Source: a virus
Virus record (IMG/VR): IMGVR_UViG_3300013103_000028
Span: 1-37,597 of that record
Reading direction: 5' to 3' (one strand)
DNA: 37,597 bases
Below are positions 7,671 to 22,310 of this stretch, one piece after another. Numbering within the stretch: position 1 is the first letter of the stretch; each line of letters starts with the position of its first letter. Position numbers and translations under genes: made by a program. The notes below the pieces were generated by a model. It was not told the origin of the DNA, did not search any database, and worked only from the letters and a program-made list of their open reading frames with translations.

Positions 7671-8600
7671 TTATAGCTTTCTCGTCACTAAATAACTTGC
7701 CAACACCAAACCAGCCAAACCAGAATCATAAAATGGTTGACTGAATGATTGAATAACCCTAGCCGCTTGTGGATTCGGTCGTTCGCTAAGCAAAACTTTG
7801 CACATATATGATAAAACTGCATAACGTATTTTTTCAGCATCAACCTTATTTGGCAGGGCATTCAATTGTAATCTGCAATGACCCCAATCACTAGTTAACA
7901 AAGCTCTACACAAATCAATAATTGATGCTTCTGTTATCTCAATTTTCCTTATCACTTGAATAATTTGATCCAAATTATCCATATCTACGATTTGGTCCAA
8001 AATGCTCAGAGCGATTCCTGGACTACCATTAGATGATTTGATTATCTCAGAAATTATTTCTGAAGGGTAATCTTCAACGTTTACATTTTCTTTTGCTAGT
8101 GCAGATAACAAAAAAGCTGTCATTTCTTTATCAGTAAGTGGCTTTACTTCAAATTGATGACAACGCCGTTTCACTGTAACTTTTAATTTCTGTGGATCAG
8201 TTGTGCACAGTATGAAGATAACATGTTTTGGAGGCTCCTCAAGTGCCTTTAACATAGCATCCTGAAAAAAGTCATTGGCCTTGTGAACCTCATCCATACA
8301 GTAAACCTTGATTTTGCTAGAGAATGGAGCGAAATGAAGATTTAGTTTGATACGCCTTGCATCATCAATACCTCTCGTATCACCGATATCAAGTTCATGG
8401 TAATCTCTATCAGAACAACCTATTTCTTTAGCAATAATTCTAGCCAAAGTGGTTTTCCCACAACCTGATGGGCCCGTAAATAAGTATGATCTTGGTTGAT
8501 CCTTTCTTGACAATATTGTTTGTAATGATGCTTTTATGCTTTCGTTTCCAAAGAAGTCCTCAAGTGACTTCGGTCTGTGATCAAGATGAAGAGGGGACAT
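7671..8600 (-). CDS. Clamp loader ATPase (DnaX/RFC small-subunit type)
   Basis: This AAA+ ATPase of about 309 aa starts MSPLHLDHRPKSLEDFFGN, as clamp loaders do. It has Walker A GPSGCGKT, Walker B VYCMDEVHKA, sensor-1 ILCTTDP and the RRCHQF segment corresponding to the SRC arginine-finger motif. A C-terminal helical domain follows. It would open and load the divergent sliding clamp at 14389-15414. The start at 8600 is preferred over an in-frame TTG at 8618 because TTGGAG lies seven bases upstream of it and the family begins there. No zinc-binding module of bacterial DnaX is present, and only one loader subunit is found, so a homomeric loader is likely. Confidence 0.9.
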   Translation of the reverse strand: MSPLHLDHRPKSLEDFFGNESIKASLQTILSRKDQPRSYLFTGPSGCGKTTLARIIAKEIGCSDRDYHELDIGDTRGIDDARRIKLNLHFAPFSSKIKVYCMDEVHKANDFFQDAMLKALEEPPKHVIFILCTTDPQKLKVTVKRRCHQFEVKPLTDKEMTAFLLSALAKENVNVEDYPSEIISEIIKSSNGSPGIALSILDQIVDMDNLDQIIQVIRKIEITEASIIDLCRALLTSDWGHCRLQLNALPNKVDAEKIRYAVLSYMCKVLLSERPNPQAARVIQSFSQPFYDSGLAGLVLASYLVTRKL

Positions 8601-8662
8601 TAGTAAACTCCAATCCAAGTTTCAGTGACATCTGTATGATATTCACATAAATATAAATCATA

Positions 8663-9757
8663 TCAGAACACATTTTTGACTCTCCCATAAAATGAATAAT
8701 GTAGATGATACCTTAAGGCAAGGATAGGGTCCCACATGGCTCCAGTGCATGATAAGGCAGCATCTGCCCCCAAATCCAAAAGGTCCTGGAAATCTTGAGG
8801 TGTCAGGATACCCCCTACAGCAAAAATCTTAAAGTCATAGTGCTCTTTTTCTCGCAAAGCAACTAAGCGGCGGGTGAAATCTCGGGCTAAATACTTTAAA
8901 GCGTAACCGCTAACCCCGCTCTGACTCCGACCAGCACCAGGCAACACCTGCTGCCCTTGTTGGTCCACCACCCTCAATTTCAGAGAATTTATTCCTACCA
9001 CCCCATTGATATCGTTGCTGACGGCGGATAGCAGACGGGCCAAGTGGCTATCCTCACTAATATAACTGACTTTTATAAGAAGTGGCAGATCCTTAACTTG
9101 CTGGCGTACAGCTCGGGTTATCTGAGCAGCAAGTTCTGGTGCTTCATAAATATGGCCTTCTTCAACAGGGCTGTTAGGGCAAGAAAAATTTAGCTCAATG
9201 ACCTCAGCCCCGGCCTCGGCCGCCAGAGCCGCAGCGCGGACAAAATCCCGCAGGAATCTATCAAAATGATTGTTTTCCGCAGTGCCCACGACGCTAACAA
9301 TCAACATCTGACCTTGTTGCAAATAATCCTTACTTTTAGCGATATCTGGCTGCCAGACTTCAGGTGACTGGAGGTCTGGAACACCCAGTGAATTGGTCAT
9401 ACTAATCTTGGTGATTGAGGTGTAAGATTTCGAAGTCTTAACATAGTCTGGAATAGCCCCAGGTAACCAAGGTTTTGTAGCCTCTACAAGCAAGCAATTT
9501 GGGTAGGGGTGCTCAGTTTGACGCCTAGTGCGAACTGTTTTATAGGTCAAGATATCAAAGCCTAATTGAGAATAAAGGCGAATCCACCGTGAGTCAAGCA
9601 ATAGCCCAGCTGGAATCCCCAACTGAGAGCTTAACTTTTTTCCCCAAAAGGGATATTTTGCTTGGCCGATTATTTTAAAAGGAAGGGATTCTGGCGATAT
9701 GCTGGGTCCATGCTCAAAATTATATTTAAAGGTCTTTTTAATATCATATACTGGCAT
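8663..9757 (-). CDS. Dihydroorotate-dehydrogenase-like FMN oxidoreductase
   Basis: This 364-aa TIM-barrel flavoprotein of the DHODH superfamily includes FDILTYKTVRT, NSLGVPD, and ELNFSCPN with the cysteine used as catalytic base in class 1 enzymes (class 2 has serine). LLIKVS, AGRSQSGVSG, FAVGGI and SCTGAMWDP follow at the FMN phosphate site. The known family reaction is oxidation of dihydroorotate in pyrimidine synthesis; reduction of another pyrimidine-like ring is possible. The gene is visibly more GC-rich than its AT-rich neighbours, suggesting recent transfer. The start could be ATG at 9757 or 9766; 9757 has AAGAAG ten bases upstream. It sits between the clamp loader and a putative DNA glycosyltransferase. 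Confidence 0.82.
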   Translation of the reverse strand: MPVYDIKKTFKYNFEHGPSISPESLPFKIIGQAKYPFWGKKLSSQLGIPAGLLLDSRWIRLYSQLGFDILTYKTVRTRRQTEHPYPNCLLVEATKPWLPGAIPDYVKTSKSYTSITKISMTNSLGVPDLQSPEVWQPDIAKSKDYLQQGQMLIVSVVGTAENNHFDRFLRDFVRAAALAAEAGAEVIELNFSCPNSPVEEGHIYEAPELAAQITRAVRQQVKDLPLLIKVSYISEDSHLARLLSAVSNDINGVVGINSLKLRVVDQQGQQVLPGAGRSQSGVSGYALKYLARDFTRRLVALREKEHYDFKIFAVGGILTPQDFQDLLDLGADAALSCTGAMWDPILALRYHLHYSFYGRVKNVF

Positions 9758-9823
9758 TGTTAGCATTCTTCTTATGATTATGACATCATTTGTGATGCTT
9801 AATAACTGCATGTAATCATTTTC

Positions 9824-10669
9824 TCAATCAATCAATTTCATTCCATAATTGTTAACGCCCCTTGGGATAACTAAACCTGGTTTCATAATCAATTTGTTTT
9901 TCTCAAATCCTTTATAAATTGGCGGTTTGAAATGTCTATAATCAACTGAATGCTGGTATCTATTCCATTTGTAAGTGATTTTGGTTACATCTGGATGTTG
10001 CTCAACTAATGATTCCGCCATTTTCTTTCTGCCTTCACCATGATACAACTCATCAGTATTTCCACCTTGCATTACCATAGTTGCAACCTTATCACATAAA
10101 AAAGCATAAAACAAAACTGTGCACCAACCATCCTTTAATACTCTCAAAGATAAATCAGTATCTTCATTGTATTTGCCCCTCCATCTATGTTTGAGACTGT
10201 TTAATATTAAAATACAAGAATATATTCTAGTGTTCAAAACAAATGGGGGATGCTTTGATTTCCTTGGCGTGAAGGACTCATATTGCATCCCAGCTAAGGC
10301 GATATTCTCATATCTATCTACAAAATCTTCTATAACTTTGAATATCGTTCCAGAATAACATCTATATTTCATATTTCTATTCAAGCGATAAAAATCCCTT
10401 ATGTTATCATCTAATATCCAATGTCTTTTAGCACCAGTAGAAATGGAGTGTTCCCAAATCCAATTCCTAGCGGGAATGGAACCTTGACCAAGATTGGAAA
10501 ATGGCAACACCAATATTTTAGCAGGATCAATTACTGAAACATAATTATCATATTCCTGCGGCTCAACCACGATATGGTAAGGAACATTCATTTTCTCAAG
10601 GGCCTTGCTCGTCAGTCTTGATCCCCACCTGCCCTTTGAAACTATATAAACAGGATATTCAGGATTCAT
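9824..10669 (-). CDS. TET-associated-glycosyltransferase-like protein (putative DNA base glycosyltransferase)
   Basis: This 281-aa GT-A-like glycosyltransferase has an N-terminal PVYIVSKGRW, a following VPYHIVVEP strand, NLGQGSIPARNWIWEH, and HWILDDNIRDF containing the DDN metal/nucleotide-sugar motif near residues 87-89. A later NEDTDLSLRVLKDGW segment fits an acceptor-side acidic motif. This pattern matches the phage TET-associated glycosyltransferase group, proposed to glycosylate hydroxymethyl-pyrimidines in DNA. No TET/JBP oxygenase or hydroxymethylase is visible in the window. The start at 10669 (ATG) is preferred to GTG at 10675; it overlaps the upstream small gene by 11 bases, indicating coupling. 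Fold assignment is good; the DNA substrate is inferred. Confidence 0.7.
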   Translation of the reverse strand: MNPEYPVYIVSKGRWGSRLTSKALEKMNVPYHIVVEPQEYDNYVSVIDPAKILVLPFSNLGQGSIPARNWIWEHSISTGAKRHWILDDNIRDFYRLNRNMKYRCYSGTIFKVIEDFVDRYENIALAGMQYESFTPRKSKHPPFVLNTRIYSCILILNSLKHRWRGKYNEDTDLSLRVLKDGWCTVLFYAFLCDKVATMVMQGGNTDELYHGEGRKKMAESLVEQHPDVTKITYKWNRYQHSVDYRHFKPPIYKGFEKNKLIMKPGLVIPRGVNNYGMKLID

Positions 10670-10913
10670 CAACACACTTCTTCCGTAGTAAATTTTCAGG
10701 TTCCAACTTTGGATACCAAATGAATTTTGTTCTCTCAGTTATTTTTTGTTTGACTAGTTTTGAAAATTCCAACATGTCCTCTTTAGATTTGAAATGAACA
10801 TGAATGGTTTTCCATGGTGTTTGTTCTTTTTGAATGAACTCTGGCATATTCTGCCAGTGCTCTTCCCAAGGCTCAGGCAAATCAAGCAACGATGATCTCA
10901 ATTTCTTAACCAT
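10659..10913 (-). CDS. Small conserved-looking phage protein paired with the glycosyltransferase
   Basis: This 84-aa protein has GAGG about eight bases before the ATG at 10913, inside the last codons of the polymerase gene, and its end overlaps the glycosyltransferase start. The C-terminal part reads as a helix (SKEDMLEFSKLVKQKI) followed by a strand TKFIWYP, preceded by a TIHVHF strand, giving a small alpha/beta unit. The tight coupling suggests it works with either the polymerase or the glycosyltransferase. I know similar short proteins from phages but no function, so it stays hypothetical. Confidence 0.6.
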   Translation of the reverse strand: MVKKLRSSLLDLPEPWEEHWQNMPEFIQKEQTPWKTIHVHFKSKEDMLEFSKLVKQKITERTKFIWYPKLEPENLLRKKCVDES

Positions 10914-13900
10914 CGCCAATCCTCTTTTGAAGCATGAATAGCACAATCCATCCACTTAGCACAGTCTATACACTCATCAAAATTATTATTATCAGGCTCA
11001 ACATCATAAACACAAGTAAACTCTGATCGACCGATAGGCCAATTTTTCCCTCCTATTCTTCCAAGAACATCAACAAAATTCTTGATACCGATTTCAAAAC
11101 TACTGTAATTATTATAGCTGTGTAGCACTGCCGCTGGATGGATGCACCAACAAATCCAGCATTTATATCTATCTGACCAAATCGTCGTGCCACTAAGTGT
11201 ACTTATGCCACTATTTCTTTCAGTAAAAAATTTTACACTAGTATTGCCAAATGCTAGTATGACAATCGGTGAGAGATTTGTGATTTCATCTTCAAGTATC
11301 ATTCGACAAGCTTCAATTTGGCCTTTAGTTGGTGTTTTGCCTTTACCTGGAAAACATTTTACAACGTTGGTAATGTGAAACATTGATGCTGATAGACCAT
11401 ATTTTCGCAATTCAGGCCACAAAATCTGATAACCAGCCTTACCAATAAACCCAATTCCTTTTTCATCCTCATCTGGGCCTGGAGCTTCTCCACAAATCAT
11501 AATATTGTAGCGTCCTATTGAAGGATTAACTGGGGCCCTACAAATTTCATGCAATTGGCATGATTTGCATTTAATTGGTTTATAATACTTCACTATTTTA
11601 ATGAGATTAACATCAGTGATTTTACATTGCAAAAGATCATCTTCAGAAAAGCTTTCCCAATCTCTATTTTCAAGTTCATACAAATGATTAAACCTATTCT
11701 TTTTGTCTGAAATATTGAATGAGAAATATTTTTGAATATCATGTGCCTCTTCATCAGTTAATTTTCTACCATCAGCACCAATTTTCAAAAGCATTTGATT
11801 CAGCGAATCTGATTGCTGCTGAATTGAGTTAATGTTGAAGAAACCTTTATTCAAACCAGATTTTGAAGCAATTTTTTGGGCTTGTGCCTTACCAATGCCT
11901 TTTATTTCAGTAAATGGTGCATACAAAACATCCTCATGTTTTGATACGAACCATTTATCAGCTAACGACAGACCAAACTTAGGCAGCTCGATTCTCAACC
12001 CCAAACGCCTTGCTTCATCAATATATGATGATTTGTTATCATCCCCACCATAAGTCAACAGTGATGCCATAAACTCTTTTGGGTAATTGAATTTCAACCA
12101 AGCTGTCCAATATGCAATGAGCGAATATTCAACTGAATGTGATTTATTAAAGGAATAACTTCCATGTGAAGATAATGCATCCCAAATTTGGGAAGCTTCG
12201 TGTAGTGTTAATGTATTCTGTTGAATACAACCATCAATGAATTGTTGCTTATATTTTCCAAACTCCTCCGAACCTTTTGATTTGCTCACTACTTTTCTTA
12301 CTTTATCACAAATTCCCCAAGACAAACCTGCCAACTCATACATCGCACGCATAACTTGTTCTTGGTAAACAATAATTCCTAGCGTTTCTTTGGTAAATGA
12401 TTCCATTTTAGGGTGGAGATACACTACTGGCTTATCTCCACGTTTTCTCATAATAAACTCATCAGTCATACCAGAAGCCAAAGGCCCAGGTCTTGATAAT
12501 GCATTAAGCAATACTATATCATCAAACTCATTAACACCCATTTCCTTGCTTAATCTTATCAGTAATGGTGTTCCCATTTGAAACACACCAACTGAATGCC
12601 CTAATGACATCTCATGAAATACTTTTTCATCATTAAGTGGAATTTTATCAAACTCTATTTCAACATTATGATTTTTCTTTATCAACTTTCTTGCATAGTT
12701 TAGCATGGTCAATGATGACAGGCCCAAAACATCAAGTTTCATCATGCCCATGAATTCAGCATCATCTTTATCCCAATTAGCGACAAGCTTATTATCTCTC
12801 AAACAAAGATTACACCTCTTGCCGAATCTCAAGTCTTCAGATGATATACAAATAGCAGCAGCATGTTGTCCAACCCCACGCACTTGATCCTCAAGTTCAG
12901 TAGCCAATTGAAAAATCTCTGGATATTTTGCTTGGAATGACCTCAACTCCTCTGATTTCTTTAATGAATCTTCAATTGTATGCCCTGGTCGCACACCATT
13001 ATCAGGCTTCAATGCTATTGATTTGGCTGCTTTATCAACATCAATTTGATTTATTCCAAATACCCTAGATACATCCCTCAGGGCGCCTCTTCCCTTCATA
13101 GTCATAAAAGTTGAGATGCCAGCGACATTATATTCACCATAGAGCTTCTCCAAATGATCTCTTACCTCATGCCTACGCTCATCTTCAAAATCAATATCTA
13201 TATCTGGAAAATCAATGCGCTCTGGAGAAACAAATCTAGCAAAAATCAATCCATATCTAATCGGATCAACATCAGTAATTCTCATCAAATACGCGACTAA
13301 ACTACCTCCAACTGAACCACGTCCAGGACCGGTCATTATGCCTTGTTCATAGCACCAATTAACCAATTCCCAAACGATCAAAAAATATCTCTGAAATCCC
13401 ATCAAGCAAATTTGCTCAAATTCATCTTCTATCCTTTTACGATAGACGCTTGGTGGTGCAGCACTTGTATCCCGTTCTATCAACCCTTCTTCAATGATTG
13501 CTCTCAAAAGTTCAGTTTCATCTTTGTCTTCAAAACCACAAACTTTCGGCAATTCAACACTGTGCCGTTTTATTTTGTAACCGTTGCATAATTCCGCTAC
13601 TGCTATCGTATTTTCAATAGCTTGCATGTATTCAACTTCATCAACTATACCTTGCCTTTTAAAACCATCAATCACTTCCTGCTCTGACCACATGTGAAGC
13701 TGCCAATCTCTTATTGTAAATCTGTCTTCATCAGTCCACCTCTTCTTGTGTTGAATTGCCAATAACACCTCTTGTGTTTTGTTTTGATGTGGTAATGGAT
13801 AATGGCAATCAACAGTAGCTACCAAGGGAATATCATTTTCCCTTGATAGCTCAACCTTCTTTGCATTTACACTTTTCTGTATCTCCATATTATGAGGCAT

Positions 13901-14383
13901 AATCTCAAGACAGACCGTATTAGTGTGATTCAACTCAAGCAATAAATCGACACCACCAGGCATATTAATGAATGAACTCACACATGCTGATAAGAAAATC
14001 AAGCCCTCTCTGTGTTCCAAAAGCACCTTAGGACTAATGCGCGGTCTATGATAAAATCCTTCAAGATTGGCGATGGATAACATCTTTAGAATGTTTTCCA
14101 ATCCAATCTCATTTGTTATAAGCGCTACAAGATGATAGCGCTTCTCACCTCTAGTTCTTTTGAGATGATCAGGAACGATATATAATTCAATTCCCAATAT
14201 TGGTGTTATTGATTGTTTTAAACATGCCTTTTGGAATTTTATTAAACCATCAATATTACCATGATCAGTACAAGCCAGATATTGATGATTAAGTTCTCTG
14301 GCTCTCAGCACATACTGCTCAGCCTTGCCGCACCCATCCAAAAGACTGTACTCTGTATGAAGATGAAGATGACAAAAAGCCAA
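10898..14383 (-). CDS. dnaE: DNA polymerase III alpha subunit (DnaE type) fused to family-4-like uracil-DNA glycosylase
   Basis: This is a 1161-aa replicative polymerase. An N-terminal PHP domain (HLHLHTEYSLLDG, CTDHGN) is followed by the C-family polymerase core with TGPGRGSVGGS near 350, PDIDIDF near 393 (two catalytic aspartates) and MKLDVLGLSSL (third aspartate). KGIGKAQAQKI is helix-hairpin-helix-like. From about 935 it carries a uracil-DNA glycosylase: CKSC, CGEAPGPDEDE with FIGKAG, TNVVKCFPG with Cys-x15-Cys, and HPAAVL near 1081; all four iron-sulfur cysteines fit family 4. It ends with a Cys tail DECIDCAKWMDC near 1131-1152. No epsilon-type exonuclease is present, so the PHP domain may proofread. 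The fusion may link synthesis to uracil detection. Confidence 0.93.
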   Translation of the reverse strand: MAFCHLHLHTEYSLLDGCGKAEQYVLRARELNHQYLACTDHGNIDGLIKFQKACLKQSITPILGIELYIVPDHLKRTRGEKRYHLVALITNEIGLENILKMLSIANLEGFYHRPRISPKVLLEHREGLIFLSACVSSFINMPGGVDLLLELNHTNTVCLEIMPHNMEIQKSVNAKKVELSRENDIPLVATVDCHYPLPHQNKTQEVLLAIQHKKRWTDEDRFTIRDWQLHMWSEQEVIDGFKRQGIVDEVEYMQAIENTIAVAELCNGYKIKRHSVELPKVCGFEDKDETELLRAIIEEGLIERDTSAAPPSVYRKRIEDEFEQICLMGFQRYFLIVWELVNWCYEQGIMTGPGRGSVGGSLVAYLMRITDVDPIRYGLIFARFVSPERIDFPDIDIDFEDERRHEVRDHLEKLYGEYNVAGISTFMTMKGRGALRDVSRVFGINQIDVDKAAKSIALKPDNGVRPGHTIEDSLKKSEELRSFQAKYPEIFQLATELEDQVRGVGQHAAAICISSEDLRFGKRCNLCLRDNKLVANWDKDDAEFMGMMKLDVLGLSSLTMLNYARKLIKKNHNVEIEFDKIPLNDEKVFHEMSLGHSVGVFQMGTPLLIRLSKEMGVNEFDDIVLLNALSRPGPLASGMTDEFIMRKRGDKPVVYLHPKMESFTKETLGIIVYQEQVMRAMYELAGLSWGICDKVRKVVSKSKGSEEFGKYKQQFIDGCIQQNTLTLHEASQIWDALSSHGSYSFNKSHSVEYSLIAYWTAWLKFNYPKEFMASLLTYGGDDNKSSYIDEARRLGLRIELPKFGLSLADKWFVSKHEDVLYAPFTEIKGIGKAQAQKIASKSGLNKGFFNINSIQQQSDSLNQMLLKIGADGRKLTDEEAHDIQKYFSFNISDKKNRFNHLYELENRDWESFSEDDLLQCKITDVNLIKIVKYYKPIKCKSCQLHEICRAPVNPSIGRYNIMICGEAPGPDEDEKGIGFIGKAGYQILWPELRKYGLSASMFHITNVVKCFPGKGKTPTKGQIEACRMILEDEITNLSPIVILAFGNTSVKFFTERNSGISTLSGTTIWSDRYKCWICWCIHPAAVLHSYNNYSSFEIGIKNFVDVLGRIGGKNWPIGRSEFTCVYDVEPDNNNFDECIDCAKWMDCAIHASKEDWRWLRN

Positions 14384-14388
14384 TTTAT

Positions 14389-15414
14389 TCAGCTCTCAAT
14401 AGTTGCTATTACATGTTTGAAATTGTCACCATAAAAATAAACCAGCTTGTTGGATGTGTAAAAGGTTTTCGTCATCTTCACTATGCTTATAAAGTACCTT
14501 GGATTAATGTTAATTGAAACACCTTCTGGCCAACTTCTCTTTCCTAACTTAACTTTTTCCTTAATAGAACCATACTGGCGTTCACCAGTCACGATAAGAA
14601 ATTTCCCCTTTGGTTTTACATTGATATAATTAAGTCCAGAGTCCTGATATGACAAGATATCAGCTCTCTCCAAGGCTAATTCAAGCCCTTCTGGTAATTC
14701 ATAAATTTCTCCCATCTCGTCATCAGAAGGGAACATATTCTTCAAATTCTCATATGGAAATTCAGAAGCGATGAGACGAGTGCTAAAAACTGCACCTCCC
14801 GAACTCATAAAATGCCCCCATGATTCAGTAACAGCATACTGCTCCAAATCATCCAATTTCAATAGTTCCCTTACAGCACCACTAGGCAATGTAAATGTTT
14901 CTCCTAAATCACCATCTAGTGTGACCAACATAGCACGAAAATTATCTGAAGACACCACATCACTACCATGACAGTGAATACCAGTAAGCCCACCATGAAT
15001 CACATTACAACTAACGCTAGGAAGGCACAACCTCAGAGCCTCCATAAATCTACCAGGAAGATTTTTCCAATCAAGTTCATTAATTGATAAGTCATTCAAA
15101 AGATCTTCTATATCATATTCTATCAATTGCATGGACAATTCAGTAACACCATCAGTTACCAAAAGTGAATTATCTGAAATTGTTAAGTCAACTTCAGAAC
15201 CTGACATTTTATCCAACACCTTAAACAACTCTAGCGCCTTCACAGCACCATTAATACCAGTATCCAATGGATAAGTTACACTGATGTCATCATTATATGA
15301 TTGTATTAAACCATTGCGAAAAACGAAACTATCAGCCCCAGTAAACAACACATCACCTTTTGCAACACCAGGAATTACCGTTTTAAGTGCTGTAATCAAA
15401 TCAGTTCTATTCAT
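14389..15414 (-). CDS. DnaN-like DNA sliding clamp (divergent)
   Basis: This 341-aa protein is close to the length of bacterial beta clamps (about 370). Recognisable elements are GIHCHGSDVVSSDNFRAML, corresponding to the conserved G...TDG.RL segment of DnaN, and FSTRLIASEFPYENL, corresponding to SRLI.G.FP. Three repeated clamp domains are plausible from length. It would encircle DNA and tether the polymerase encoded immediately downstream, six bases away. AAGGAG lies five bases before ATG 15414. Its low similarity means paralogue roles cannot be excluded, but position and motifs support the clamp call. Confidence 0.8.
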   Translation of the reverse strand: MNRTDLITALKTVIPGVAKGDVLFTGADSFVFRNGLIQSYNDDISVTYPLDTGINGAVKALELFKVLDKMSGSEVDLTISDNSLLVTDGVTELSMQLIEYDIEDLLNDLSINELDWKNLPGRFMEALRLCLPSVSCNVIHGGLTGIHCHGSDVVSSDNFRAMLVTLDGDLGETFTLPSGAVRELLKLDDLEQYAVTESWGHFMSSGGAVFSTRLIASEFPYENLKNMFPSDDEMGEIYELPEGLELALERADILSYQDSGLNYINVKPKGKFLIVTGERQYGSIKEKVKLGKRSWPEGVSININPRYFISIVKMTKTFYTSNKLVYFYGDNFKHVIATIES

Positions 15415-15620: not shown

Positions 15621-16418
15621 TCACTTTTCTCGTGACCAAGTGTTAACCACTCTAACACCAACTGGATTCATTTTATCTTTGAATGCCTTCAATTTCACAT
15701 TGTCTAGCACTCCCCCATCATTGACCAATTTGCCACTTCTTTGAATTCTCTCATCAGTGTAAAACAAAAAACGCATGTATTCACTTACAAACTCTTCATG
15801 CCTACAAATACACAAGCGATAATTTATCATTTTCCAGTTCTCATCCCAAACATTAATACCATATATGGTATCATTTAATATAAGTACTCGTCTATTTTTA
15901 CCACTGATAGCATACTTAATCATCACTTCAGCTTCATGCAATTCCCGTAATTCTTTGTTACTAAACCAATCTGAGATTAAATCCAATATCCCATTCTTAT
16001 GCTCTGAAGTTGGCTCCAAATATACTGAATCTGGATGCCTATTAGGAAACTTGCGACAATTTTTTCTAAAAACTGCCCAATCTTTCCCTTTCATATCCAA
16101 AAAAGATTTTGGATCATAAATGTATTCAAAATCAAGAAATGTTGAATGATAATTTAAACCAGGATGATATCCACAAAAATCAGACCAAAATTTACCAGCC
16201 CAATCAGAATCAACATCAACAGGACAAACACCCTTCATCACGTGTATGGGTGGAAAAACCACCAAAGAAGCATCAACATCCCATACGAAAACCCAATCCC
16301 CATCAGATTTTTCTACAAGACATGCCTTATCAAAATACTCATCAGATACCCAAAAATTTGGAGAGATTTTGAATCTTCTCAGCAATTCAAGATATTTACC
16401 GCTCAAGTTCAAGCCCAA
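15621..16418 (-). CDS. GNAT/DUF2156-like acyl- or aminoacyl-transferase
   Basis: This 265-aa protein has a helix KDWAVFRKNCRKFPNR in the middle, a strand pair around RVLILNDTIYGINVWDENW and NYRLCICRHEEF. The C-terminal VNDGGVLDNVKLKAFKDKMNP resembles the end of DUF2156/FemAB-like GNAT enzymes that move acyl or aminoacyl groups. GNAT-like transferases acting on DNA bases occur in phage hypermodification pathways, and this gene lies directly downstream of the radical SAM-PLP set. The start is uncertain: TTG at 16418 is used, overlapping a small basic gene by 23 bases. The fold assignment is moderate; the substrate is unknown. Confidence 0.5.
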   Translation of the reverse strand: MGLNLSGKYLELLRRFKISPNFWVSDEYFDKACLVEKSDGDWVFVWDVDASLVVFPPIHVMKGVCPVDVDSDWAGKFWSDFCGYHPGLNYHSTFLDFEYIYDPKSFLDMKGKDWAVFRKNCRKFPNRHPDSVYLEPTSEHKNGILDLISDWFSNKELRELHEAEVMIKYAISGKNRRVLILNDTIYGINVWDENWKMINYRLCICRHEEFVSEYMRFLFYTDERIQRSGKLVNDGGVLDNVKLKAFKDKMNPVGVRVVNTWSREK

Positions 16419-16554
16419 GCCCTATATTCTTCTCTTTTTCATGTTTCTCTTTTTCAGGCTTCTTAACACTCGAAAATTGCTGGTGGCTTCTTGATAGCAG
16501 CCTATCTATCAATGCCTTGCTCACCCCACCTGTTTTTCTACTTTTTCCTCCCAT
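16396..16554 (-). CDS. Small basic protein, 52 aa
   Basis: ATG 16554 has GGAGG nine bases upstream, inside the last codons of the 251-aa gene. The protein is highly charged (MGGKSRKTGG, KKPEKEKHEKEK) with a short helix SKALIDRLLS. It overlaps both neighbours in other frames (17 and 23 bases), which fits a translationally coupled operon. No family is recognised. It could be an accessory DNA-binding peptide, but that is only inferred from charge. Confidence 0.5.
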   Translation of the reverse strand: MGGKSRKTGGVSKALIDRLLSRSHQQFSSVKKPEKEKHEKEKNIGLGLELER

Positions 16555-17293
16555 CTGAAAGAACCTCCAATATTCCTAATTCATCATACACACACCAAGA
16601 GATAATGCCACTCATATTATTTGATTTAAGTAACAAGAACCCCTGCCTATCAACAGGGATACCAAACTCTATCAAATTATGAAATGAAAACAATGAAATG
16701 AAATCAGGAGTTCTTATCCCTATTGGCCCAAAATCACATTGTATTTTATCTGGTGAAGAAATTTTGAACCCCTGTGATTTCCTTGTCAAGGTTATGACTG
16801 TCCCAGAAAATATATCATGTTGTTTTATTACGAGTGATTGGTCAACTGAAGAGAATTCCAAATGTGACAAATTTCTCTCTATCAAAGAGAGTGATTTTTT
16901 GTGTATCGAAAATGAAGAACGAACAGGGACCTGAAAATTCTCCCATATTTTATTCACATCATTAAATGACAATCCAGGCGTTTTACAAGTTTTTAATCTA
17001 GTAAATTCATCATCAGACTTCCCTTCTAATTGGAAACAAACATGCCCATCTTTTTCATACAATTTCCCAGATTCATAATCATTAGCCTTAAAACTAATTG
17101 GCTCATGAAATTCTGATATATGTTTGGGAAGGTTAAATTTTAACAGAACAGTATTATCACCATTCATTATAAATATAGTTTTCTCAAAACAATATATAGT
17201 ATTCCTCAGCAATCCACTTTGGTCAAGTGCTGCAGCGATAGCAAAAATACCCTCAAGATATTGTCTTTGTTTTTTATCAGTAGTGGGATTCAT
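16538..17293 (-). CDS. Unknown 251-aa protein in the radical SAM cluster, perhaps clamp-like
   Basis: No family is firmly recognised. The protein is mostly predicted beta strands of about ten residues with short helices (TIYCFEKTIFIMNGDNTVLLKF, then SFSIHKKSLSLIERN, then GTVITLTRKS), and ends with GFLLLKSNNMSGIISWCVYDE. This repeated strand-rich layout and a closing long strand are reminiscent of sliding clamps of the PCNA/gp45 type, but no diagnostic motif is visible. It starts eight bases after the first radical SAM gene and so belongs to that operon. It could be a scaffold for the modification enzymes on DNA; this is speculative. Confidence 0.55.
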   Translation of the reverse strand: MNPTTDKKQRQYLEGIFAIAAALDQSGLLRNTIYCFEKTIFIMNGDNTVLLKFNLPKHISEFHEPISFKANDYESGKLYEKDGHVCFQLEGKSDDEFTRLKTCKTPGLSFNDVNKIWENFQVPVRSSFSIHKKSLSLIERNLSHLEFSSVDQSLVIKQHDIFSGTVITLTRKSQGFKISSPDKIQCDFGPIGIRTPDFISLFSFHNLIEFGIPVDRQGFLLLKSNNMSGIISWCVYDELGILEVLSDGRKK

Positions 17294-17301
17294 TCGATCA
17301 C

Positions 17302-18696
17302 CTAAATGAAATTTTTCAACATTTCCAAACGATAATCTGGCAAATTGTTATCATAACGCCAACGCCGACCGAACTCATCCATCCCTGCTGGAACAATATA
17401 TGGTGCCCAGTTTGGATGGTAGGCCGGGTTCCCACACAAATTCCAAAGCTCCTTTACCTTCTTTTCCAATTTAACACTAAGAAATCCACCATTGTCAGCT
17501 ACCATTCTATTATAATCACACCAACTGACAGGCTTATTAGATGACATTATGAATCTAACCATCAAAACCATGCAACCATAATTCCATCCAGAAGAAGTGA
17601 ACCAATCACCCACATTACAACAAATAGGATCATCATTGCTAGGCACATTCCCCATATCAAAAGTCGAACATTTTATTCCTTCCTCACGAAACAAATCCAT
17701 AAATTTTCCAAGCAACAATGAACCTAACCACTGACAATCACTCATGATTATGAACATTCTCTCAAAATCATAACCTTTATGATAAAATGCCTTTCGTATG
17801 ATAGGAGACCTAGCACTATAACTATATGTATCAAAAGTTATATGTTCAATTCCAGCTTCCTTTATGGTGTTTATATATTCAGAAACGTCATCAGGAGAAT
17901 CATTTATAAATGACATAAAAGGTTCTATTCTCGCTACCACCCTTACACCAGCAGATGATAATTGTTTTGAAGCGTATATTCTTTTTTTGAATGATGGTGC
18001 ACCAGGTTCTAATTTCCTATTTATTGCATCATTTGACGATATCATAGTAATATGAACGGCTGCACCAGCTGGATTGTCTGCCATAACTTTAACATAATCA
18101 TCATGACCAACCAAATCAGATTTAGTATTGATCATAACAGGATATGAATTCTCAGCTAAGTATCTCAACATCTCATAACTAATCCTCTTTTTATTTTCCA
18201 TTGGAAGAAAATCTTCAAATCTGATACCGAAACGCATAGGTATATTCAAGTTTATTGCTCTAGCCCTATCATCAACATTGCCAACCTTTTTCCCACGATT
18301 TTTGAAAAGTCTATCAAGCTCTGATTTATAATAATCTGGTTTGCAATGTCGTAAACCTATCGACTTTGGATTATCAAAAAGACCCGTGTAGAGAGAATAT
18401 CTGAAGTCATCTGCATAACAGTATATGCAACCATAACCACATCTCAAACCGTCCCAAACATCAAGATTAAGTGGCATCGGACAAGCTTGCGCACGCAAGC
18501 TCACTTCCAAAAAAGAGGTTATTTCTTCTGGGTTTAGTAAATGTTCATACTTATACCATTCTCGAGTTCTCAAATCAAACCATTGATAATTGGTTTTGCG
18601 CCCCTTCTCCTTGATTGAACCTCTTTCATTTTTTATGAAGCGAAGTTGCCTCGGAACCAATTTAGATACTATTTTCCGTAATTCCCAATAATTCAC
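17302..18696 (-). CDS. Radical SAM enzyme, SplB/COG1533-like (first copy)
   Basis: This enzyme of about 464 aa has a radical SAM motif CGYGCIYCYAD (Cys86-x3-Cys90-x2-Cys93) binding a 4Fe-4S cluster. A VMINTKSDLV strand follows, like the TKSDLL segment of spore photoproduct lyase-like 'DNA repair photolyases', then a RIEPFMSFIND strand. It would generate a 5'-deoxyadenosyl radical. The C-terminal third has more cysteines (PICCNVGDW, NYGCMV) and could bind another metal. The start is GTG at 18696, giving a GTGA overlap with the PLP gene stop; TTG at 18720 is an alternative. Its pairing with a PLP enzyme and a second similar enzyme suggests work on DNA bases, though its substrate is unknown. Confidence 0.75.
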   Translation of the reverse strand: MNYWELRKIVSKLVPRQLRFIKNERGSIKEKGRKTNYQWFDLRTREWYKYEHLLNPEEITSFLEVSLRAQACPMPLNLDVWDGLRCGYGCIYCYADDFRYSLYTGLFDNPKSIGLRHCKPDYYKSELDRLFKNRGKKVGNVDDRARAINLNIPMRFGIRFEDFLPMENKKRISYEMLRYLAENSYPVMINTKSDLVGHDDYVKVMADNPAGAAVHITMISSNDAINRKLEPGAPSFKKRIYASKQLSSAGVRVVARIEPFMSFINDSPDDVSEYINTIKEAGIEHITFDTYSYSARSPIIRKAFYHKGYDFERMFIIMSDCQWLGSLLLGKFMDLFREEGIKCSTFDMGNVPSNDDPICCNVGDWFTSSGWNYGCMVLMVRFIMSSNKPVSWCDYNRMVADNGGFLSVKLEKKVKELWNLCGNPAYHPNWAPYIVPAGMDEFGRRWRYDNNLPDYRLEMLKNFI

Positions 18697-19532
18697 TTGC
18701 CACCACCACCGATGTTCCAAAACAATATTGGTTTGTCTAATTTATTATAGTTATCTAAAGCAAATTTTAGGGCCTTTGTATCATAATATGGATTGCATGG
18801 GAATGGTGTATCAATGTCAACCTTGTCTATATACCCCAAATTCGTGTTTATCAATTCAAAACCAATCGTGTCAAGCAGCCTACCATCAAGCAGTCCTGCC
18901 TTTTGTTTGATAGACTTATATTTATTCATGCTTTTACAGCGACGACTCACAACTCCAATTATTGAAATTGACTTATTTGATTTCAATCCAGCAAGAATAC
19001 CTGAACATATGGTGCCGCTACCAACACAAACGACTATCGTCTTCACATCTGATAAATCAGTATATTGAACTTGCTTAGCAGTTTCAACTACCGTCTCAGA
19101 TAATGGTAAACCTAAGGGCAACACAGTTTCATCAGCATTGCAAAGCATTTTCCTAGCTATATTAAAATTAACTTTAGCCATAAGTGGTTTCATTGGAATA
19201 ACTATTGCTTCTAATTCATTCCATTTCACTCTATGGGACTCATGAACTTTCCTAGCCGGGTGTTTACCAGAATACTGTGGGTCAAATATAACTGATTTCA
19301 TACCCAATTCACGTGCAATCCAAGCCACTCCCCAACCAGCCATGGATATTGCAGTTTCTACATAACCGACTGTTGTTACACCAGACCGTTGCAATTTCAA
19401 CATATGCATGAACAACCCACGCATTTTACTAAAACAAGGTCCTGGTGGTGGGCATGATAAATCCTCACGTTTTACCAGAATACTCTTTCCATCAATTATA
19501 TGCCTTTCTACTGGCGTATCACTCAACCTCAT
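18693..19532 (-). CDS. Fold-type-II PLP-dependent enzyme (ACC deaminase/threonine synthase-like)
   Basis: This 279-aa enzyme of the tryptophan-synthase-beta fold has VKREDLSCPPPGPCFSKMRG with the expected Schiff-base lysine at 36, TAISMAGWGVAWIARELG, and a glycine-rich phosphate loop GSGT at 171-174. Such enzymes do beta-elimination, beta-replacement or deamination on amino acids. It is slightly shorter than the usual 300-340 aa. Its start overlaps the second radical SAM gene by four bases (ATGA), and its stop overlaps the first radical SAM gene in GTGA. This very tight packing suggests one pathway: the PLP enzyme may attach or cleave an amino-acid-derived group. The fold is secure, the reaction unknown. 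Confidence 0.8.
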   Translation of the reverse strand: MRLSDTPVERHIIDGKSILVKREDLSCPPPGPCFSKMRGLFMHMLKLQRSGVTTVGYVETAISMAGWGVAWIARELGMKSVIFDPQYSGKHPARKVHESHRVKWNELEAIVIPMKPLMAKVNFNIARKMLCNADETVLPLGLPLSETVVETAKQVQYTDLSDVKTIVVCVGSGTICSGILAGLKSNKSISIIGVVSRRCKSMNKYKSIKQKAGLLDGRLLDTIGFELINTNLGYIDKVDIDTPFPCNPYYDTKALKFALDNYNKLDKPILFWNIGGGGK

Positions 19533-20614
19533 AACAAACCCAAACCATTCAAACCAGCATCCTTTAACGTATAAAATTTTGAAGATTCACCTAGCAAGAC
19601 TCTCTTTCCCATTTCATAATCACCTATACCATCCCAAGTCAAATCAAGTATCTCATCTAATGCATAGCCACTTTGAATCATTCTAATCCAAGTGTGAGTA
19701 TTAAATGTGGTAGGATTTGGAACATCTACGCTACAACAGGTATTACAATTTTGATGATAATCTAAGCTAGCATTAACGAAATCCGGACACCCTAATATTA
19801 TATCATACTTTTCAGCTAAATCTATCAATTCTCGCAAAATAATCCTCCATTGAGCATCTTGATTATAAAACCAAATTCTTTCTATATCAATGCCAATTGA
19901 ATTCAATCGCCTTGCAACGAATGCATTAAAATGAAAATTATAAGTATTGTAACGATTAATCCCAAAAAATTTCAACATTTTCAGCATTTCCTCAAATTCT
20001 GAAATTTCATGATAACCTGGTATGAATGGTTCACCATTCACACCAACATACAACCCATATTCCTTCAATAATTGAAGTTGTTGTAATCGCTTCCATGGGT
20101 GAGTAGTTCTTTCCCTTTCCAATATTCGCCAATCCCTCTCGAAACCAGGACTAACAATTGGGACGATTATAAAATGAGCTTTATTCTCAACTATGATATC
20201 AAAATATCTCAGAAGGTTCTCTGTGAACTTCGTTTGAATGACAGTTGACCACTTAAACTTTCCTAGAATTGATAGAACTCTTCCACTAATACCATATTCC
20301 AAATCAGCTTCCTGAAATGGATCAGATTTGTTACCAAACCTAAGAGTTTTCTTTTTTGCTAAACAATGTGCTAATGATGACTTAGGATTTTTGTTTCTCA
20401 AACCATTAATAATCTTCTTTTCAAAGCCATCTATATCAAGAGGTTTTAATTCCTGCCCCCAAACATAATTAAGATTGCGAAAATAACAATGCCAACAATC
20501 AGTTAAACAATTCCCATAACTATCCAGACTAAATGAGAGGGGACAATAAAGACTGTCCCCTCTCACCACTAAACCATTCTTAAGATTTTGAGAAAATGAC
20601 TTTTTCACCTTCAT
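19529..20614 (-). CDS. Radical SAM enzyme, SplB/COG1533-like (second copy)
   Basis: This 361-aa enzyme has a radical SAM motif CLTDCWHCYF (Cys36-x3-Cys40-x2-Cys43). LRFGNKSDPFQ and TVIQTKFTENLL resemble the G..TDP.Q and TK..LL segments of spore photoproduct lyase-like enzymes, and GEPFIPGY is a barrel strand. A C-terminal CPDFVNASL ... NCNTCCSVDVPNP region supplies extra cysteines that could hold an auxiliary cluster. It differs clearly from the first copy, so it is not a simple duplication. The start is uncertain (ATG 20614 or GTG 20608, the latter with better GAGG spacing); it lies 35 bases within the end of the upstream gene. A DNA-modifying role is inferred from the cluster. Confidence 0.75.
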   Translation of the reverse strand: MKVKKSFSQNLKNGLVVRGDSLYCPLSFSLDSYGNCLTDCWHCYFRNLNYVWGQELKPLDIDGFEKKIINGLRNKNPKSSLAHCLAKKKTLRFGNKSDPFQEADLEYGISGRVLSILGKFKWSTVIQTKFTENLLRYFDIIVENKAHFIIVPIVSPGFERDWRILERERTTHPWKRLQQLQLLKEYGLYVGVNGEPFIPGYHEISEFEEMLKMLKFFGINRYNTYNFHFNAFVARRLNSIGIDIERIWFYNQDAQWRIILRELIDLAEKYDIILGCPDFVNASLDYHQNCNTCCSVDVPNPTTFNTHTWIRMIQSGYALDEILDLTWDGIGDYEMGKRVLLGESSKFYTLKDAGLNGLGLL

Positions 20615-21401
20615 TCCTCAGCAAACCAATGGTTGATAAAACATTAATAACTTGTTTTACACACCACAAGCTTTCTTTTATGTTGTTTCTACCTTCCTTC
20701 TCAACATAAAGTTTGTTTGCACTCTCCGCCAACTCATCCACAGAATAAGCCTTACCAGTTAATAAGCAATCTGCAACAGAATTAACCCTCGTATATTTCT
20801 TGAGTGCTTTCTTAGAAGTTTTCTTGGAGGTTTTCTTAGATTCCTCCACCTCTTCAGAAGCTCTTTTGGATTTCTCTGCATTGGCACGCTCAATACATTC
20901 CTTAATCCTACTGCAAACTTTGCAAGCTTCATCACCTTCTTTAGGGCCTAGCGCTTGCACGAATCCAGGACACTCCTCACCTTCAGCCAAATAAACATCA
21001 GAAGCAGGAGTCTGAGTTTCGGTCTGAACTTCTATAGGCTCTTGCTTTTGAACTTCAGTCTCAATGGTTTCCTGGTCATCAACAGATTCCTGTTCTTGAA
21101 CTTCAACAGGCTCCTGCTCCTGAACTTGTTCTTGAACTTCAACAGGCTCCTGCTCCTGAACTTGTTCAGAAATCAACTTCTCATATACAGATATGGTCTC
21201 ATGAGATAAATCAGCACATTTAGGATCAGTCCAGATAGGATTACCATTCTCATCCTCACCAATTCTTGATGCAATAGTCTCAACGATTTGCTTGGACAAA
21301 TTCTCAATTGAGGCAATGAAGTTCAATTTCGGTCGGGGATTAAGCGTCTTATTGATATCCTTAACCGCCAACTGAAGAGACCTGCGATCAGATTTTTCCA
21401 T
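20580..21401 (-). CDS. Glutamate-rich repeat protein with Cys motif and winged-helix-like end
   Basis: This 273-aa protein has a helical N-terminal part (to about 80), then a low-complexity segment repeating VQEQEPVEVQEQ-type units (about 80-130). Next is a Cys cluster ECPGFVQALG ... ACKVCSRIKEC, a basic KKTSKKTSKKALKK linker, and a C-terminal helix-rich domain (about 200-273) that reads like a winged helix (SVDELAESANKLYVEKEG, VKQVINVLSTIGLLR). AAGGAG lies seven bases before ATG 21401. The Cys cluster matches tails on the SSB and polymerase in this window. A DNA-binding or replisome adaptor role for the radical SAM cluster is plausible; function unknown. Confidence 0.6.
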   Translation of the reverse strand: MEKSDRRSLQLAVKDINKTLNPRPKLNFIASIENLSKQIVETIASRIGEDENGNPIWTDPKCADLSHETISVYEKLISEQVQEQEPVEVQEQVQEQEPVEVQEQESVDDQETIETEVQKQEPIEVQTETQTPASDVYLAEGEECPGFVQALGPKEGDEACKVCSRIKECIERANAEKSKRASEEVEESKKTSKKTSKKALKKYTRVNSVADCLLTGKAYSVDELAESANKLYVEKEGRNNIKESLWCVKQVINVLSTIGLLRNEGEKVIFSKS

Positions 21402-21456: not shown

Positions 21457-21798
21457 TCATTCCGATAAATTTTTGACACTCAAATAAGCAACCTTCTTGC
21501 CAAATTTCATGCACCGATTCCTAGTGGGCAACCAAATGTCAACACGCTTTTTCCACCTTTTATGCATTCTGTCCAAGAAAACAAATTTGCCGATTCCCTT
21601 CAAAATGATCTCATCACCGAATGTAACACCCAACTGATGCTCCAAATCACGTGATAGGGCAATACAGCCAACCCTAACAAGCTCACCACTAGCAGTCATA
21701 TTCTCACTCAAACAATAAGCAGTAACAGTAACAACCACTGGAGAGGGTGCATTCACATTCATACTAGACAACAATATGATGAGCAGTAATTTAATCAT
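21457..21798 (-). CDS. Secreted 3D-domain (double-psi beta-barrel) protein
   Basis: This 113-aa protein starts with a signal peptide (MIKLLLIILLSSMNVNA), then a 3D domain: VTVTAYC, GCIALSRDLEHQLGVTFGDEIIL, and FVFLDRMHKRWKKRVDIWLP, whose DRM and VDI give two of the name-giving aspartates, with a FGKKVAYL end. Such domains occur in cell-wall lytic transglycosylases and in Bacillus YabE/YocH-type proteins. The likely site of action is outside the cytoplasm on peptidoglycan, perhaps in lysis or DNA entry. The start is ATG 21798, overlapping the SIS gene stop in TGATG; an in-frame TTG nine bases upstream is less likely. Confidence 0.75.
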   Translation of the reverse strand: MIKLLLIILLSSMNVNAPSPVVVTVTAYCLSENMTASGELVRVGCIALSRDLEHQLGVTFGDEIILKGIGKFVFLDRMHKRWKKRVDIWLPTRNRCMKFGKKVAYLSVKNLSE

Positions 21799-22310
21799 CA
21801 AATCCAACTGCGCTGAGTAAACAAAGCCACGGCCAGAGCATTCCCCATAGCCAAAGTTGCGGTGGTACTAGCCATTGGGACTAAAGCCAGTGGGCAGGTC
21901 TCACGAGGCACGCTAACATCAATAATCACTGCGTTTGACTTCACTAGCATAGAGTCCAAACGATCAGCCAGGATGATCAAGGAAGCTCCTAGACACTCAA
22001 TATTAGAGAGTGTGGTATTCAATTTCTCAATCTCGCTACCATCAGATAAGACCAAAACAACATCCCCAGGTGAAACCATCAAACCATCATGCATCACTAA
22101 TGCTGGCGTGCCAGTAGAATTAAAGATTGTTGCCAGCTTGTGTGCCATGATTCCAGATTCATCAGCGCTGGCAACTATCAAGCGTCCTTTTGAACTAAGA
22201 ATCATCTCTACTGCCTGAACAAATTTGTTATCCAGCTTGTCAATCAAACTATAGATGCCTTCAGCTTCGATCATCAACCCTTCTCGGGCCAATTGCAAAA
22301 GATCACTCAT
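21798..22310 (-). CDS. KdsD/GutQ-like SIS-domain protein, truncated
   Basis: This 170-aa SIS-fold protein aligns by eye with arabinose-5-phosphate isomerase: AEGIYSLIDKLD, GRLIVASADESGIMAHKLA, STGTPALVMH, ETCPLALVPMASTTATLAMGNALAVAL. Compared with KdsD it lacks the HGDLG segment, has LSDGSEI where KdsD has ISNSGES, ends before SHPGGALG (a catalytic histidine region) and has no CBS pair. It is therefore likely to be inactive as an isomerase, or to bind another sugar phosphate. Its start overlaps the DnaB-like gene stop by four bases (ATGA). Phages use SIS-type enzymes in surface sugar metabolism, but no partner gene is seen here. Confidence 0.75.
   Translation of the reverse strand: MSDLLQLAREGLMIEAEGIYSLIDKLDNKFVQAVEMILSSKGRLIVASADESGIMAHKLATIFNSTGTPALVMHDGLMVSPGDVVLVLSDGSEIEKLNTTLSNIECLGASLIILADRLDSMLVKSNAVIIDVSVPRETCPLALVPMASTTATLAMGNALAVALFTQRSWI

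Follow-up and report, generated by a model that had tools for sequence, protein, structure and literature searches.

We describe a compact gene module in a 37.6-kb uncultured virus record, IMG/VR record IMGVR_UViG_3300013103_000028 (the window, here meaning the whole 37,597 nucleotides), that we consider likely to encode a clamp-tethered, post-replicative system for DNA base hypermodification in which a new core is combined with known tailoring enzymes. The core consists of two radical S-adenosylmethionine (SAM) enzymes, rSAM1 and rSAM2, a 251-residue protein with a predicted sliding-clamp fold, clamp2, and a GNAT/DUF2156-like transferase, GNAT. Between the two radical SAM genes lies a slot whose content varies among related phages and which in the window holds a pyridoxal 5'-phosphate (PLP) enzyme, referred to below as PLP. 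The module and the replication genes that follow it are:

19529..20614, minus strand: rSAM1, radical SAM enzyme with CX3CX2C (C36, C40, C43) and a C-terminal CC motif
18693..19532, minus strand: PLP, fold-type II PLP enzyme of the M6 gp52 family, putative tailoring enzyme in the variable slot
17302..18696, minus strand: rSAM2, second radical SAM enzyme, paralogue of rSAM1, with CX3CX2C and a GTG start
16538..17293, minus strand: clamp2, 251-aa sliding-clamp-like protein of predicted PCNA fold
15621..16418, minus strand: GNAT/DUF2156-like transferase of predicted MprF/FemX aminoacyl-tRNA-transferase fold
14389..15414, minus strand: clamp1, replicative beta sliding clamp, immediately downstream of the module (profile A7 against PDB beta clamps, E=3.9e-15)
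10898..14383, minus strand: DNA polymerase III alpha (PHP) with PF07733, PF17657 and PF02811, and a C-terminal domain of the uracil-DNA glycosylase (UDG) superfamily at residues 960-1090 (PF03167, E=1.1e-20)

An initial annotation of this DNA had described two SplB-like radical SAM genes flanking a PLP gene with four-base overlaps on both sides, and re-reading the coordinates, which place the whole module on the minus strand, bears this out. The first overlap is ATGA, since rSAM1 ends in TTATGA and the start of PLP (to 19532) lies within it; the second is GTGA, shared by the PLP stop codon (TGA, 18695-18693) and an rSAM2 start codon (GTG, 18696-18694). Due to this second overlap, we take the true start of rSAM2 to be the GTG at 18696, giving 464 residues, rather than the TTG at 18720 of the mechanical open reading frame (ORF); in the alignment, rSAM2 homologues share the N-terminus 'MNYWELR' at the same point. 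Downstream of rSAM2 follow, in turn, the 251-residue protein, GNAT, the beta clamp and the polymerase, as expected for a cluster placed just upstream of the clamp and polymerase genes.

An invariant core and a variable slot

IMG/VR was scanned with PLP (15 loci) and with alignments of rSAM1 (57 loci) and of the 251-residue protein (56 loci); module counts given here refer to non-redundant loci with enough flanking sequence. All 38 loci centred on rSAM1 contain rSAM2, clamp2 and GNAT. Among loci centred on clamp2, rSAM2 lies upstream in 38/38, GNAT lies downstream in 40/40, and rSAM1 is present in 35 of 37, the remaining two having a different radical SAM paralogue at that position. In about 40 divergent contigs from uncultured phages, the set rSAM1-rSAM2-clamp2-GNAT recurs as an invariant core adjoining the beta clamp. 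The usual order is DnaB, a lysine-rich protein, rSAM1, the variable slot, rSAM2, clamp2, GNAT, clamp1, the polymerase region and the clamp loader, and its recurrence in about 40 non-redundant contigs puts the grouping beyond chance. When six genomes were compared, the core families were common to all, together with DnaB, beta clamp, polymerase and clamp loader. In these six genomes the core co-occurs with polymerase genes, as the initial annotation had proposed to look for; PLP is present in 20 of 40 complete loci. One contig binned to a Thioalkalivibrio metagenome-assembled genome has the same order with PLP, and a TAGT-family glycosyltransferase gene directly after GNAT.

The median identity of the radical enzymes is 48-54%, whereas that of the neighbouring clamp1 and DnaB is 28-30%. 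Correlations of pairwise distances between genes are just moderate (0.06-0.62), and the module has therefore probably been reassorted in part. Among 50,697 records of isolate phages, none could be matched to rSAM1, clamp2 or GNAT by tblastn; rSAM2 gave three weak partial matches only, and looking for the module in isolate phages at the DNA level returned no match. With no description in the literature searched either, the suspicion that this exact combination is not a named system holds.

The core is constant while the tailoring slot varies, an observation that supports the proposed function. PLP was found in only 20 of the 38 non-redundant loci examined for it. Across 40 complete loci, the slot tally is PLP in 20, a methyltransferase-like protein with an aldo-keto reductase in 8 or alone in 2, a flavin adenine dinucleotide (FAD) enzyme with an aldo-keto reductase and without PLP in 2 (and one further with PLP), a DNA methyltransferase only in 1, and no recognised gene in 7. 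In L048 and L052, the place of PLP is taken by an FAD enzyme homologous to gp47 of phage PaMx11 (E=1.9e-32 and 3.2e-24, respectively), followed by the aldo-keto reductase; this family occurs in the sister loci L048, L052 and L062 only and is absent from the window. Given that PLP is related to gp52 of phage M6 and the FAD enzyme to PaMx11 gp47, a single slot in one core takes enzymes related to those of two known thymidine pathways.

Further insertions occur in individual loci. A TAGT homologue lies directly 3' of GNAT in L149 (50% identity), in L048 a homologue lies upstream of the whole module, and a weak TAGT-like glycosyltransferase sits between clamp2 and GNAT in L082 (11409-12227). In L010 (8357-12509), a DNA methyltransferase, a second GNAT-like protein, a deaminase-like and a nucleotidyltransferase-like protein are inserted in the module.

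Predicted activities of the module proteins

The radical SAM enzymes rSAM1 and rSAM2 are paralogues (hhalign probability 98.5). The nearest group for both is PA0069/Rv2578c (COG1533, SplB-like), in line with the label SplB-like in the first reading of the locus; rSAM1 matches NF033668, the PA0069 family, with E=2.9e-14, and rSAM2 matches NF033668 with E=2.6e-17 and PF04055 with E=2.5e-5. This is their best family, yet the two NF033668 scores, 62.9 and 52.8 bits, fall far under the curated cut-off for membership of 360. The CX3CX2C motif is invariant in alignments A3 and A4 and occurs in 54/56 and 59/63 of the homologues. Both enzymes also have a C-terminal CC, which in rSAM1 (59 homologues aligned, median identity 48%) forms part of 'NTCC'; this and the cysteines are invariant in A3. 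In addition, rSAM2 weakly matches M6 gp53 (E~2e-5, 23% identity). Sequence searches of the PDB with the radical SAM, PLP and clamp2 profiles gave nothing useful.

Departures from this pattern were seen in several loci. The rSAM1 homologues at L142:5408-6502 and L144:3888-4982 have CX2CX2C in place of CX3CX2C, and at L095:4540-6536 and L100:3024-4993 rSAM1 is swapped for another radical SAM paralogue with a DUF362 protein ahead of it. Intein-like inserts break rSAM2 exactly at the CX3CX2C cysteines in L090 (10783-13619), L056 (9481-11879), L084, L016 (6616-8135), L062 and L085; the insert sequences were read for L090, L056 and L016. In both L090 and L056 one insert spans two overlapping ORFs, the second of which begins with an endonuclease-like part.

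The 251-residue protein, initially annotated as a strand-rich unknown, has no match in Pfam, PHROG or NCBIfam. Its AlphaFold2 (AF2) model has a mean predicted local distance difference test score (pLDDT) of 82.7, and the top 50 Foldseek matches in the PDB are exclusively sliding clamps (PCNA, bacterial beta and 9-1-1; best E=1.8e-9). On the basis of this model, the protein is a second clamp-fold protein, with a predicted two-domain PCNA fold, beside the replicative clamp1. Matches in a viral structure library are likewise mostly clamps, and also include the clamp fold of a viral late transcription factor. A similarity to the M6 helical protein gp55 (E 0.17-0.23) was dropped once the fold proved to be that of a clamp.

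For GNAT, the earlier assignment as a GNAT/DUF2156-like transferase stood. Its match to PF09924 (E=6.4e-6) scores 25.9 bits, just under the cut-off of 27.5, and its AF2 model (pLDDT 94.8) retrieves 2hqy, MprF/L-PGS/A-PGS, Sbb17 and FemX in Foldseek, with E from 6.6e-12 to 2e-5. These are mostly enzymes that draw amino acids from charged tRNA. As modelled, GNAT has the DUF2156/MprF/FemX aminoacyl-tRNA-transferase fold, and it probably moves an acyl, probably an aminoacyl, group. The aminoacyl-tRNA-dependent transferases MprF/L-PGS, FemX and Sbb17 share this fold, but their substrates are lipids, peptidoglycan precursors or antibiotics.

The assignment of PLP to fold type II was confirmed by PF00291 (E=2.3e-12), and PLP also matches phrog_7093 (E=2.4e-44). 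It is 36% identical to M6 gp52 over 99% of its length (E~1e-43), and the lysine of 'FSK' is conserved. Phage records name this gene threonine dehydratase, a name that the IlvA equivalog score, 30.7 bits against a cut-off of 421, does not support.

A proposed route and its alternatives

To our knowledge, 5-hydroxymethyldeoxyuridine (5-hmdU), together with a DNA kinase and an amino-acid:DNA transferase (ADDT), is the starting point of all characterised amino-acid-type thymidine hypermodifications. Lee et al., in NAR in 2022, are said to have described how radical SAM isomerases, PLP decarboxylases, flavin lyases and acetyltransferases then sculpt amino acids on 5-hmdU. PaMx11 (Abidjanvirus) carries 5-aminomethyldeoxyuridine (5-NmdU). 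Its FAD cassette (gp46-gp51) shares with our loci the FAD enzyme of L048 and L052 and a GNAT-superfamily protein, the latter being a small acetyltransferase in PaMx11; it differs in having ADDT, kinase and hydroxymethylase and in lacking a radical SAM pair or second clamp. M6-like phages have hypermodified thymidines and a cassette that includes PLP and radical SAM genes (PMC9476957), the M6 product being 5-aminoethyldeoxyuridine (5-NedU; PMC6449724). The M6 (Yuavirus) cassette, gp51-gp58, resembles the window in having the full-length PLP homologue followed by a radical SAM gene near the replication genes. In contrast, M6 has a single radical SAM enzyme where the window has two paralogues, clamp2 and a DUF2156-like transferase, and it has ADDT, 5-hmdU kinase, a helical partner and dUMP hydroxymethylase, none of which was found here.

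ADDT (PF18724) was not found in any of the 50 contigs searched, the window included (M6 control, E=2.3e-48), nor was the 5-hmdU DNA kinase (HMUDK; PF18748) in 11 or the HMUDK helical domain (PF18723) in 46. The M6 control was positive in the first ADDT, the kinase and the helical searches; a second ADDT search had no control of its own. For a dUMP hydroxymethylase of thymidylate synthase (TS) fold, the window has no PF00303, and TS-like matches occur in 3 of 46 contigs, that of L075 reading as a canonical TS. A TET/JBP dioxygenase as the source of hydroxymethyluracil (hmU) gave no match in 46 contigs in a search in which no positive control rang. Contigs of up to 172 kb were taken in, none of them proven complete. 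From these searches, the module keeps the tailoring enzymes of the known pathways and appears to replace their whole front end with the radical SAM pair, clamp2 and the aminoacyl-transferase-like GNAT.

We propose the following model. Clamp2, a dedicated second clamp, would keep the modifying enzymes in place on newly synthesised phage DNA. A precedent is the T4 alpha-glucosyltransferase (alpha-GT), which binds the clamp gp45 (PMC13216743); there too a DNA-modifying enzyme is coupled to a sliding clamp, whereas in T4 the clamp is the replicative one and the enzyme a glycosyltransferase, and the window has a second clamp inside the modification operon. Activation of the base, most likely at the C5-methyl group of thymine, would fall to rSAM1 and rSAM2, which would also build a side chain of amino-acid type linked through carbon or nitrogen. 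GNAT would acylate the base or an amine exposed by tailoring, the group being probably aminoacyl and its most likely donor aminoacyl-tRNA; because aminoacyl transfer consumes the carboxyl, the exposed amine is the likelier acceptor and a first step the less likely role. By homology with M6 gp52 and its presumed role, PLP would decarboxylate this amino-acid-type side chain, and in sister phages a PaMx11-type FAD enzyme or a methyltransferase, each with the aldo-keto reductase, would alter it instead. In the window phage, TAGT may attach a sugar. Phage DNA that carries the product would be protected from host nucleases. GNAT is also invariant where no tailoring gene is seen, so these steps may run in another order.

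We strongly infer that DNA is the target, and by analogy with the M6 and PaMx11 relatives the modified base is probably thymine. The suggestion in the initial annotation of an amino-acid-derived modification on a DNA pyrimidine was borne out in part: it was well directed, in view of the M6 gp52 and PaMx11 gp47 homologues and of a second clamp beside the replication genes; its pyrimidine part rests on that analogy, and it had missed both the clamp and the tie to the thymidine pathways. A pyrimidine that carries an amino acid is also known from the DNA of Synechococcus phage S-B43, where CmoA/CmoX/CmoY make 5cxmC-glycine (PMC12783734), although that system targets cytosine and uses an ATP-dependent ligase and unrelated enzymes.

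Several points weigh against our proposal. The template modelling (TM) score of clamp2 to true clamps is just 0.5-0.6, which makes ring formation uncertain, and simple regular expressions found essentially no clamp-binding motifs in the module enzymes. A recognised tailoring gene is missing from 7-8 of the 40 complete loci. The aminoacyl transfer would use the carboxyl that PLP removes, and the two must therefore differ in the group they act on or in the stage at which they act. Finally, the contigs are all uncultured and possibly incomplete, and a divergent front end could escape detection.

This last point bears on the strongest alternative, a classical 5-hmdU pathway of the M6/PaMx11 type whose front end is undetected, divergent or host-supplied, with rSAM2 corresponding to gp53 and PLP to gp52. 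The PLP and FAD homologies fit it, as do the weak likeness of rSAM2 to M6 gp53, which has the same place after PLP, and the presence of TAGT, a family that acts on hydroxymethylated pyrimidines. The UDG-superfamily domain tied to the polymerase, with a weak UDG-like match in M6 gp48, fits it too. The hmU phage SPO1 has a similar UDG-polymerase fusion, a lead rather than a test, which would favour the 5-hmdU pathway. Given that ADDT and both HMUDK parts gave no match in any contig searched for them, that the few TS matches include a canonical TS, and that two radical SAM enzymes, clamp2 and an aminoacyl-transferase-like GNAT are foreign to the M6 and PaMx11 cassettes, we think the classical pathway rather unlikely. 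A little easier to credit, and offered tentatively, is a 5-hmdU-independent form of the proposed hypermodification, in which the clamp-carried radical SAM pair attacks the ordinary thymine methyl in finished DNA, an aminoacyl-tRNA-dependent transferase adds the amino acid, and interchangeable known enzymes tailor it. The chemistry of the core could realistically be new.

A target other than DNA, be it tRNA, a peptide or a protein such as the clamp, with clamp2 serving late transcription like T4 gp45, is improbable. Radical SAM, PLP and DUF2156 enzymes do act elsewhere on tRNA, peptides and lipids, one module (L086) includes RtcB, and a viral late transcription factor has the clamp fold, but the window has no tRNA gene and no obvious precursor-peptide gene, the module is located inside the replication operon, and enzymes of M6 and PaMx11 type occur in the module or its sister loci. 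Still less probable is DNA repair, with the paired SplB-like enzymes reversing photolesions or other damage, clamp2 recruiting them and the neighbours being unrelated accessory genes: both radical SAM enzymes are nearest the 'photolyase-like' COG1533/PA0069 group and clamp recruitment is common in repair, but the operon holds PLP, FAD, aldo-keto reductase and methyltransferase tailoring genes, two of these variable enzymes being homologous to known hypermodification enzymes, and an invariant GNAT with no known repair role.

If clamp-tethered hypermodification is correct, the module would offer a new means of functionalising bases within intact DNA, and clamp2 would be a rare example of a clamp dedicated to modifying DNA. 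Furthermore, the roughly 40 sister loci would combine tailoring genes in naturally varied ways, with different products predicted from them.

Genes around the module

The UDG-superfamily domain, fused to the polymerase in the window, is a conserved separate gene in other long genomes; sister genomes encode a separate UDG-plus-exonuclease protein, for example at L030:7057-8274. Between DnaB and the lysine-rich protein, the window has genes for a SIS-domain protein (PF01380, 21798-22310) and a small secreted-looking protein (phrog_24247, 21457-21807), neither with homologues in related loci. A dihydroorotate dehydrogenase (DHODH)-like gene was rejected as part of the module, since it occurs in the window only and in none of the related loci. 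The lysine-rich protein, the small basic protein of the initial annotation, was said to follow the radical SAM and PLP genes; it in fact precedes rSAM1. The remaining neighbours are:

7671-8618: clamp loader gene
8663-9811: DHODH-like flavin mononucleotide (FMN) protein, PF01180
9824..10675, minus strand: TAGT-family DNA glycosyltransferase (PF20691, 163 bits against a cut-off of 27.5), probable extra tailoring enzyme
10659..10955, minus strand: 98-aa protein, TAGT companion, with a homologue immediately ahead of TAGT in L149 and L048
20580..21401, minus strand: lysine-rich low-complexity protein with a conserved C-terminus, whose homologues lie immediately 5' of rSAM1 in many loci

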